A DNA stretch of 64,000 nt from the NCBI RefSeq assembly GCF_000332995.1, contig NZ_BANS01000005.1, positions 62,001-126,000 of the forward strand. The letters run 5' to 3'. The DNA is from Gordonia amicalis NBRC 100051 = JCM 11271. GTDB lineage: Bacteria > Actinomycetota > Actinomycetes > Mycobacteriales > Mycobacteriaceae. This document shows, piece after piece, positions 47,976 to 52,791 of the stretch (positions within the stretch are counted from its first letter, which is position 1; the number at the start of each line of letters is the position of its first letter). A program made the translations under genes and the position numbers. The notes below the pieces were generated by a model. That model worked only from the letters and a program-made list of their open reading frames with translations, searched no databases and had not been told where the DNA came from.

Positions 47976-48111
47976 GGAAACCGGGGCCGGTCGGTAGAGT
48001 CGACGCAGGTAAGGTCTTGATGTCGGGACCACGGGGTGCGGGTTCCGGCGGTGGGGGTCCGCTGTCGACACCGGCATCGGGTCAGGAGTAGTGCGCGGCG
48101 AGGAGAGTCTC

Positions 48112-48822
48112 ATGTGGTACTGGGCGTTCAAGTACATCTTCCTGGGACCGTTCCTCCGCGTCCTGGGTCGCCCGACGATCGAGGGGCACGAGAACATCCC
48201 GGTCGACGGGCCCGCCATCCTGGCGAGCAATCACCTCGCGGTGATGGACAGCTTCTTCCTCCCGCTGATGGTCGACCGCCGGATCTACTTCCTCGCCAAG
48301 AGCGAGTACTTCACCGGCACGGGTCTCAAGGGCGCGTTCCAGCGGTGGTTCTTCACCGCGGTCGGTCAGATCCCCATCGACCGGTCGGGTGCGGCCGCCG
48401 CCGAAGGTGCCTTCACCGGCGCACGCCGCCAACTCGACAAGGGCAAGCTGATGGGCATGTACCCGGAAGGCACCCGCTCACCCGATGGCCGCCTGTACAA
48501 GGGCAAGACCGGACTCGCGCGTCTGGCGATGGACACCGGAGTGCCGGTCATCCCGGTCGCCATGATCGACACCCACAAGTTCAACCCGCCCGGGTCGATC
48601 CTGCCGCGCCCCACGAAGGTGACCGTCCGCATCGGCAAGCCGCTCGACTTCTCCCGCTTCGAGGGAATGGAGGGCAACCGCTACATCGAGCGCGCCGTCA
48701 CCGACGAGATCATGTACGAACTCATGCAGCTCTCCGGCCAGCAGTACGTCGACGTCTACGCCGCGAGCCTCAAGAACAAGGCCCCGTCCACCGAGTCGCA
48801 GGCCGCCGACGCGGTCGCCTGA
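48112..48822 (+). CDS. 1-acyl-sn-glycerol-3-phosphate acyltransferase (PlsC family)
   Basis: The 236-residue protein carries both PlsC motifs: NHLAVMD with H41 and D46, and YPEGTRS near residue 124. The family transfers an acyl chain to lysophosphatidic acid or related acceptors at the membrane. It stands at the Rv2182c position among PIM/LM genes, so acylation of a mannosylated lipid is a possible alternative. The ATG at 48112 follows GAGGAGAG by a few bases; an in-frame start 21 bases earlier lacks this. The first hydrophobic segment (WAFKYIFLGPFLRVL) may anchor it. Confidence 0.9.
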   Translation: MWYWAFKYIFLGPFLRVLGRPTIEGHENIPVDGPAILASNHLAVMDSFFLPLMVDRRIYFLAKSEYFTGTGLKGAFQRWFFTAVGQIPIDRSGAAAAEGAFTGARRQLDKGKLMGMYPEGTRSPDGRLYKGKTGLARLAMDTGVPVIPVAMIDTHKFNPPGSILPRPTKVTVRIGKPLDFSRFEGMEGNRYIERAVTDEIMYELMQLSGQQYVDVYAASLKNKAPSTESQAADAVA

Positions 48823-48964: not shown

Positions 48965-50572
48965 CTAACCCGCTTCGCCCACCCGCGCGTCGTCGAGGAC
49001 GGCGCACAGCTCGGGAATCCAGTCACGGTCGGCGGGTACGACGTCGTCGAGGTCGAGCCGGCGCAGTTCGTCGGCCGAGAACCACTGCATGTCCAGATGT
49101 TCCAGGGCGGCCGGGGTTCCGGAACGTAGGCGAGCGCGGTAGGCGTACAGCATCAGGCCGTTGGGGAGGGTGACCTCCGCCCCGATACGCCCAGCCACCT
49201 CGATCTCGGCCCCGAGTTCCTCGCGGATCTCGCGGGTGAGAGCGGTCGCGTGGGTCTCGCCGGATTCGACTCGGCCACCGGGCAGTTCCCACTTGCCGGC
49301 GAGCTCGGCCGGATGTGCGCGCTGGGCGAGCAGAACCCGACCGTCGTCGACGATGGCCGCTGCCACCACATCCTGCGGGCGGTCGTCGGTCCGGTGGGCG
49401 CCGCGCGCCGCACGGGTGGCGATCAGCCAGCCCATCGTGACGAAGGTGGCGATCGACCAGGCCGCTCCGAACACGGCCTCGACGGCAGCCTGGGGCTCGG
49501 GTCCGTATTCGATGAGGACGCGCAGGATCCACGGGATGCCGAGCCCGGCGACGACCACCCACATGCCCAGGATCGCGCGGGCGCCGGGGCGTCGAGCGCC
49601 CGCGCCGTGTACGAGCCAGACGCCGAGCGGCACCACCCACACCCAGTGGTGGACCCAGGAGATCGGTGAGATCAGCAGGCCGAAGAACTGCACGACGAGC
49701 AGGACGCCGAGGGCGTCGGACACCGACCGCCAGGTGAACACGGCCACGACGGTGGCGACCAGGACGCCGAGGAACCAGATCCAGCCGGTGCCGACGTCGA
49801 AACCGACGAACCGCGAGAGGGTCCCGCGCAGGCTCTGGTTGATGACCGCCTGGACGGGGCCGATGCGTTCGGCGTCCCCGAACAGGGTGCCGTAGTAGGT
49901 CCGGGTGACCTCCGGGAAGAGCAGCAGGCAGCCGAGGACCGTGAGCACGAAGGCGAACGCCGCCGACAGCGCACCCGACGGCTTGCGGACGGCGAGGTAC
50001 CAGAGGCCGCTGATGGCCGGGGTGAGCTTGATGCCGGCCATGAGGCCGATCAGTGCGCCGCCCGCGAGCACACCGCGCTCGCTCGGGGTCCCGTCGGCGC
50101 GACGCGCCCAGGAGATCGCCATCAGGGTGCCGAGCATCAGGAAGACGTTGATCTGGCCGTAGTCCAGGGTCACCCGGACCGGCTCACACCAGATGGCCGG
50201 TGCGGTCCACAGCGCCGCGAGTGCGTGGACGTCGGTGGACCGGCCGCACAGTCGGAGCGCGAGCACCACACAGGCGTAGAGGGCGGCGAAGGTCGCGAGC
50301 TGCCAGCCGATCGCCACGATGTCCCACGGGATCAGCGACAGGGGATAGAGCACCACCGCGGCGAACGGTGGGTAGGTGAAGGGCAGCGCGAAGTCCGTCT
50401 CACCGGAATAGGTGAACAAATAGAGCGACCCGTCGGCGAGACCCGCCGAACCGTCGCGGTAAACATGCAGGTCGACGAAGTTCCTGCCGTTCACGGTCAG
50501 CGTGTCCCAGACGAGCCGCGCGATGATCGACGCCGCCAGGAGAGCGGTCGCCAGCACAGACCTGGAGCGCAC
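48965..50572 (-). CDS. GT87 mannosyltransferase fused to a C-terminal Nudix (MutT-like) hydrolase
   Basis: One 535-residue frame joins two unrelated enzymes. Residues 1 to about 390 are a polytopic GT87 protein with about ten helices; the loop after helix 1 has VDLHVYRDG with the aspartate typical of polyprenyl-phosphate-mannose-dependent GT-C enzymes. It lies at the position of the LM/LAM alpha-1,2-mannosyltransferase Rv2181. Residues about 397-530 are a Nudix domain with an intact Nudix box (G433-x5-E439-x7-R447-E-I-R-E-E-L-G454), closest in look to MutT 8-oxo-dGTPases. No stop or frameshift separates them. The start is a GTG at 50572. The Nudix half should face the cytosol. Confidence 0.88.
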   Translation of the reverse strand: MRSRSVLATALLAASIIARLVWDTLTVNGRNFVDLHVYRDGSAGLADGSLYLFTYSGETDFALPFTYPPFAAVVLYPLSLIPWDIVAIGWQLATFAALYACVVLALRLCGRSTDVHALAALWTAPAIWCEPVRVTLDYGQINVFLMLGTLMAISWARRADGTPSERGVLAGGALIGLMAGIKLTPAISGLWYLAVRKPSGALSAAFAFVLTVLGCLLLFPEVTRTYYGTLFGDAERIGPVQAVINQSLRGTLSRFVGFDVGTGWIWFLGVLVATVVAVFTWRSVSDALGVLLVVQFFGLLISPISWVHHWVWVVPLGVWLVHGAGARRPGARAILGMWVVVAGLGIPWILRVLIEYGPEPQAAVEAVFGAAWSIATFVTMGWLIATRAARGAHRTDDRPQDVVAAAIVDDGRVLLAQRAHPAELAGKWELPGGRVESGETHATALTREIREELGAEIEVAGRIGAEVTLPNGLMLYAYRARLRSGTPAALEHLDMQWFSADELRRLDLDDVVPADRDWIPELCAVLDDARVGEAG

Positions 50573-50692
50573 GAATTACCAGGGTAGCCAGCAAACGACG
50601 GCAATGGCGAAACGTACATCGCCCGGGCGCGTGTGCGGGTCCCGTCCGAGGGTGTCCCGGGACGTGGAAAAACGGCGTGTGAAACTGTCCCC

Positions 50693-52632
<1,940 letters not shown>

Positions 52633-52655: not shown

Positions 52656-52791
52656 GGTTTCGATACGCCTCGTCGCAGGCTCCTCGGCTACTCAACCGGC
52701 GGTGGGGGTGTGCCTCGTCGCAGGCTCCTCGGCTACTCAACCGGCGGTGGGGGTGTGCCTCGTCGCAGGCTTCTCGGCTACTCAACCGGCG
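52656..52791. repeat. 45-bp tandem repeat, three copies
   Basis: Units start at 52668, 52713 and 52758; the first two are identical and the third has one change (CTCC to TTCT region) and is truncated at the end. Each ends with CTCAACCGGCG. The tract begins with GGTTTCGATACG. Ends GGTTTCGA and CTCAACCGGCGG are shared with the repeats at 27636 and 56795. No gene lies in this 213-bp spacer between aroG and pknL. Confidence 0.9.

Follow-up and report, generated by a model that had tools for sequence, protein, structure and literature searches.

A gene on the minus strand of a Gordonia amicalis contig (NZ_BANS01000005.1) raises the question of which enzymes are joined when a membrane mannosyltransferase continues into a Nudix hydrolase, and of how they came to be one gene. 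We analyzed the gene within a stretch of 64,000 nucleotides of this contig (hereafter the window, taken as a whole) and compared it with related genomes. We put the probability at about 0.78 that it encodes one bifunctional membrane protein, which would combine an outward-facing PimE mannosyl transfer activity with a membrane-tethered cytosolic MutT2 nucleotide hydrolase and would have arisen by fusion of old neighbours. The features of the locus are as follows.

48091..48822 (+), plsC-type acyltransferase, downstream neighbour, convergent (PF01553)
48965..50572 (−), putative fused PimE-MutT2 ORF, 535 codons and a stop codon; 14 further Gordonia genomes have this frame open
48968..49369 (−), MutT2-like Nudix domain, residues 402-535 (PF00293, PDB 5zrc, dN/dS)
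49208..49276 (−), Nudix box, residues 433-455; R447, E448, E451 and E452 kept in 30 of 30 Nudix rows
49364..49369 (−), in-frame GTG at codons 402 and 403, both candidate internal starts where linker and Nudix domain meet (codon reading)
49370..49417 (−), linker, residues 386-401, hydrophilic, Arg-rich at its start, of species-dependent length (dN/dS)
49418..50572 (−), PimE-like GT87 (GT-C) membrane domain, residues 1-385 (PF09594, PRK13375, PDB 9dm5, trees)
50471..50473 (−), D34 codon (by alignment the counterpart of D58, the catalytic base in M. abscessus PimE); kept in 31 of 31 GT rows
50633..51187 (+), Rv2179c-like exoribonuclease, upstream neighbour, divergent (PF16473)
51220..52632 (+), class II DAHP synthase (aroG), start approximate (PF01474)

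Just 3′ of aroG, ahead of a minus-strand protein-kinase-like ORF, a 45-bp tandem repeat was observed at 52667-52791 (2.8 copies, 98% match).

The open frame and its membrane half

Reading of the reverse strand placed the start of the ORF at a GTG at 50572 and its stop at a TAG at 48967-48965, giving an uninterrupted protein of 535 amino acids. Pfam assigned residues 65-303 to GT87 (PF09594, 149.9 bits against a cut-off of 25, profile positions 1-237 of 237) and residues 401-521 to a complete NUDIX domain (PF00293, 64.6 bits against a cut-off of 21.1), and no stop and no frameshift lies between the two. The Nudix box GX5EX7REUXEEXGU is complete from G433. The original prediction of a GT87 mannosyltransferase that runs without a stop into a complete Nudix domain is borne out by these results, and it is confirmed that 48965..50572(−) encodes both domains in a single open frame.

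The GT half can be assigned by homology to PimE, the α-1,2-mannosyltransferase of PIM synthesis, which we take to be Rv1159 in M. tuberculosis. On PRK13375, presumably the PimE model of NCBIfam, the window protein scored 410.9 bits. This is 2 bits under the curated equivalog cut-off of 413 and counts against the assignment; for comparison, the nearest unfused Gordonia gene scored 427.9, six PimE genes of other genera 566-673, the GT87 that usually occupies this chromosomal slot (slot-type GT87) 163, and two further GT87s of the window genome 219 and 193 over their matched parts. In a GT87 tree of 14 PimE, 14 slot and 15 paralogue rows, in which long branches were flagged on two rows (L002 and L003), the 14 PimE rows including the window protein formed one clade (support 100/99).

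The top PDB match of the GT half was 9dm5 (290 bits); 9DM5, 9DM7 and 9MJB are structures of M. abscessus PimE, the assignment of 9dm5 being taken from an excerpt of PMC12041525. That paper names D58, Y62, K195 and W319 among the residues of importance. The counterparts of D58, Y62, D160, Q163, K195, W319, H321 and H322 are all present in the window protein, where D34, Y38, D137, Q140, K182, W306, H308 and H309 were checked as catalytic or donor-site residues, and 31 of 31 GT rows agree. The window protein thus shares with M. abscessus PimE the GT87 family, the checked residues, and a last helix and tail that align. It differs from known PimE in that its C-terminal tail runs on into a Nudix enzyme and in that its gene lies between the exonuclease gene and plsC, not near a free mutT2 and typA.

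In 39 of 59 Gordonia genomes, the place next to the Rv2179c-like exonuclease gene is taken by a GT87 of a different subfamily (slot query, 408-985 bits; adjacency by coordinates). We take this slot-type GT87 to correspond to Rv2181, an α-1,2-mannosyltransferase of M. tuberculosis. Of nine genomes tested from other genera, six have it next to the exonuclease, five of these with plsC on the other side; it is matched elsewhere in two and is without a match in one. It is missing from the Gordonia genomes that have PimE in the slot (15 fused and 2 unfused; best match 219 bits), and three of the 59 genomes (G004, G045, G032) have neither slot GT87 nor PimE. Two loci were seen in which the exo-plsC slot is empty and plsC directly follows the exonuclease (L177 from G004 and L178 from G045).

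In the GT87 tree, the 14 slot rows formed a clade of their own (support 100/100) that excludes the window protein. The window gene and the slot-type gene (Rv2181-like) have the same chromosomal position and Pfam family, but they fall into separate clades, the slot gene reaches the low PRK13375 score given above, and it is missing where PimE fills the slot. On the basis of tree and synteny, we rejected the window gene as an orthologue of the positional GT87 of related genera. Since the fusion stands in place of a paralogue, the comparison by position, in which the original prediction had set the gene against a M. tuberculosis homologue devoid of a Nudix domain, was misleading; the right comparison is PimE, whose gene adjoins mutT2 in many loci of related genera. 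A likely annotation trap is corrected in this way, the gene in the slot being PimE by homology and not the usual slot GT87.

The Nudix half and the copies of MutT2 in Gordonia

The Nudix half is MutT2-like as judged by homology. Its top PDB match was 5zrc (MutT2) with 121.5 bits and 4e-34, and the runner-up (2.3e-17) lies 17 orders of magnitude behind. We assume that 5ZRC and seven further PDB entries represent M. smegmatis MutT2, and that MutT2 is Rv1160 in M. tuberculosis. Against this reading, the Nudix half stayed far below every curated Nudix equivalog cut-off of NCBIfam (best PRK10546, 81-85 bits against 156), so that its substrate is assigned by homology only, and its NCBIfam matches included no model named MutT2. 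The Nudix tree, composed of MutT2-like rows and one other Nudix row only, gives no test of nearness to MutT2 as against other Nudix families. A separate MutT1-like gene is present elsewhere in the window genome (395.8 bits, below the curated cut-off of 475). The earlier idea of a MutT-type enzyme captured as the Nudix part agrees with these data, the nearest solved relative being MutT2, which is matched elsewhere in the other 44 of the 59 Gordonia genomes.

Excerpts of published work identify MSMEG_5148 as mutT2 (PMC12702967) and state that MutT2 digests dCTP (PMC10742078); a 2013 paper, also as an excerpt, calls the natural substrate of MutT2 unidentified (PMC3855555). A portion of the text of PMC5158307 lists E. 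coli NudG on CTP and gives, without stated units, 1.2 for M. tuberculosis MutT2 on dCTP against 47 for NudG on CTP. Like MutT2, the window version is a complete Nudix domain; MutT2 is its best PDB match, and it is the sole MutT2-like domain found in fused genomes. It differs in that known MutT2 is encoded by a separate gene, whereas the window version is the C-terminal domain of a membrane protein.

The original prediction had raised the question of how often the fusion occurs in related genomes. It was found open in 15 of 59 Gordonia genomes, the window genome counted, and in one Rhodococcus metagenome-assembled genome (MAG). Two more Gordonia genomes (G005 and G043) have the GT half alone at the same place, with PimE unfused and MutT2 elsewhere in the genome, and 42 have neither. 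The contigs with the fusion include those of G. alkanivorans, G. namibiensis, G. paraffinivorans and G. lacunae. No PimE orthologue was found in 42 of the 59 genomes (best match ≤131 bits, a paralogue or the free MutT2); because of this, PIM5/PIM6 synthesis in most of the genus Gordonia is unexplained or absent.

When the 59 genomes were searched with the Nudix half as query, the next match in all 15 fused genomes was at most 63.1 bits, that is, there was no second MutT2, and all 44 unfused genomes had a MutT2 match elsewhere (82-134 bits). A free-standing MutT2 gene was not found in any fused genome; the domain is fused in all 15, with no other copy. In 12 of the 15 free Gordonia MutT2 loci that were read, the 1.5-kb flank contains typA, a neighbourhood also seen in Rhodococcus and Prescottella. 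All 3 unfused controls had a mutT2 gene beside typA, whereas none of the 5 fused genomes tested did. In the 15 fused Gordonia genomes, the fused Nudix domain is therefore the only MutT2 found, and the free gene has been lost. These genomes look like a single lineage and are probably one event seen many times, so that 15 of 15 counts as about one historical event.

By title or abstract, no paper found had a PimE-MutT2 or GT87-Nudix fusion as its subject, and no literature on Gordonia with PimE was found. The domains and their neighbourhood are already known; the fusion, the loss of the free MutT2 and the replacement of the slot GT87 did not appear in the papers found. The genus offers a ready comparison for a membrane-related role of MutT2, with genomes that carry the fusion, an unfused PimE or no PimE.

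Origin from neighbouring genes

With the window protein as query, 315 named loci were found, of which we examined the best 80; some of these end soon after pimE. Eight of the 80 carry the fusion (seven Gordonia and the Rhodococcus MAG). In 37, mutT2 follows pimE on the same strand at a distance of at most 700 bp, and in 20 it follows at a greater distance (up to about 4.7 kb). In the remaining 15, no mutT2 was found within the locus; all 11 Nocardia loci are among these, and thus the neighbourhood is not universal. In 9 of 9 translated gaps between pimE and mutT2, a small opposite-strand frame was found with an HHPDID-RW motif, which we take to be that of pterin carbinolamine dehydratases. A gene of this family (PF01329) is present in 58 of the 59 Gordonia genomes and lies on another contig in the window genome.

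The position of pimE and mutT2 as same-strand neighbours in many Rhodococcus and Mycobacterium loci, with a small gene between them, can explain why these two genes fused, and loss of the gene lying between them is a likely route. The two old chromosomal neighbours would have fused, the fused gene would have taken the place of a different GT87, and the free mutT2 would have been lost.

A fused PimE-Nudix single ORF is also present in the Rhodococcus sp. MAG (JAAYXN010000055.1, locus L043), where it is beside a typA homologue. This fusion comes from one contig of a genome rated 75% complete. It has the same two domains in the same order, with a linker of about 17 residues, but it adjoins typA, and its PimE half groups outside Gordonia with the unfused L147, which points to an independent origin. 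L147, from a family genome with the same genus code as the MAG, has pimE and mutT2 as separate genes. A single common origin of all fusions was rejected on the GT half (p-AU 3e-54; 11 of the 15 Gordonia fusions and L043 against 47 rows, paralogues left out). On the short Nudix half, one clade of all fusions gave a p-AU of 0.38, which does not decide, and one clade of all Gordonia MutT2 rows used was not rejected (p-AU 0.26). The trees of both halves and their topology tests included 11 of the 15 Gordonia fusions, and the Nudix-half tree and its test included 15 of the 44 free Gordonia MutT2 sequences. A two-gene species tree (33 rows), too weak to place the event, showed two changes and was also compatible with one. 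Since the PimE half of L043 groups with L147 and one fusion clade was rejected, the fusion appears to have arisen at least twice, in L043 independently of Gordonia.

Among the matches listed for 401 family genomes, the L043 MAG was the only non-Gordonia genome matched across both halves in one stretch. Apart from the loci read directly, the absence of further fusions among these genomes (at least 251 with a match) is judged from match ranges only. Tabulated frame lengths were not used to call fusions, because the open frame of L157 was 652 as tabulated and 430 by direct reading. An order-wide search of 397 genomes adds little, its threshold of 1e-105 being passed by near full-length matches only.

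Two further observations were made on these loci. A contig labelled as a Bifidobacterium breve MAG (CALQLM010000068.1, L070) carries a Mycobacterium-type pimE-mutT2 pair and falls inside Mycobacterium in both trees, and for these reasons it is probably wrongly binned. In four Nocardia loci (L056, L067, L088, L100), a second PimE-like GT87 directly follows the first and shares 44-47% identity with the window protein where the two match; the L088 locus holds only part of it.

One polypeptide and its possible function

All 15 Gordonia fusions keep the two halves in one frame. In the 12 whose linker was measured, it spans about 9 to 39 residues between the last helix and the Nudix start. Among the 15 fusions, the median dN/dS was 0.171 for the GT half (residues 1-385, 105 usable pairs), 0.885 for the linker (residues 386-397, 86 usable pairs) and 0.232 for the Nudix half (residues 398-525, 105 usable pairs). 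Both halves are under purifying selection and the linker is nearly neutral.

It is quite likely that one polypeptide is made, because a start codon is lacking at the border in 3 of the 15 fusions, whose fused domain is their only MutT2. These three (L009, L016, L020) have no ATG, GTG or TTG at codons 402-403; across codons 383-404, L009 and L020 have no start codon and L016 has only an ATG, which lies inside the last helix. The fusion could instead be incidental, with the Nudix enzyme made mainly as a free soluble protein from GTG402 or GTG403 and with a tether that has no role. The GTG at codon 402 is present in 12 of the 15 fusions including the window, where AGGA stands ahead of it, and a free MutT2 gene is the form in other Gordonia genomes. 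Such split expression is nevertheless fairly unlikely in view of the three fusions without a border start and of the survival of the frame between the halves through many length changes. The internal start that the original prediction had placed near codon 395 is thus possible, as GTG402, in the 12 fusions and has no start codon at the border in the other three.

According to an excerpt of PMC12041525, PimE has 12 membrane helices with both ends cytoplasmic, and its mannose donor, polyprenyl-monophospho-mannose, is used in a cavity close to where membrane and periplasm meet. The last helix of the window protein aligns with those of unfused PimE proteins and is followed by the Arg-rich stretch, so that homology to the PimE structure would place the Nudix domain in the cytosol, where nucleotides occur. 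If the gene makes one bifunctional protein with both activities at work, the N-terminal PimE (GT-C) would use polyprenyl-phospho-mannose as donor at the outer face of the plasma membrane and add α-1,2 mannose to PIM4. The C-terminal MutT2, attached through a flexible linker to the last membrane helix at its cytosolic end, would hydrolyze nucleoside triphosphates, mostly pyrimidine ones. A natural fusion would in this way tie an envelope-glycolipid enzyme to a nucleotide-pool enzyme.

A stronger form of this reading, whose odds overlap with it, is that a CTP/dCTP hydrolase tethered at the membrane couples PIM mannosylation to the supply of nucleotides. Phosphatidylinositol, on which PIMs are built, is made by way of CDP-diacylglycerol, which draws on CTP, and the tethered hydrolase might tune CTP at the membrane site of PIM assembly. 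This coupling would explain the lasting neighbourhood of pimE and mutT2 in many Rhodococcus and Mycobacterium genomes as well as the at least two fusions, and the reported digestion of dCTP by MutT2 and the listing of NudG on CTP are consistent with it. However, neighbouring genes can fuse without a functional reason, and the unitless figure for MutT2 on dCTP is low beside that of NudG on CTP. The repeated fusion and the neighbourhood hint at a functional link, whereas the nearly neutral linker, the unfused PimE of G005 and G043 with MutT2 elsewhere, and the Nocardia loci point to an accident. We regard the coupling as improbable.

The original prediction had also proposed that the Nudix half removes an inhibitory prenyl- or nucleoside-diphosphate by-product of glycosyl transfer, for which only the physical linkage speaks. 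From the polyprenyl-monophospho-mannose donor, the leaving group would be a monophosphate. The donor is used near the periplasmic face and the C-terminus of PimE is cytoplasmic (excerpt of PMC12041525), so that the Nudix domain would be on the other side of the membrane, and a Nudix counterpart is present elsewhere in the 42 Gordonia genomes without PimE. By-product clearing is thus disfavoured and very improbable.

Finally, a sequencing or assembly artefact that removed a stop, feared by the original prediction near 49380-49420, was rejected as practically out of the question, because 14 other Gordonia genomes have this junction open as well, with fusions 65-92% identical to the window protein; there is no local error, and the joint between PimE and MutT2 is real and long-lived in some Gordonia.
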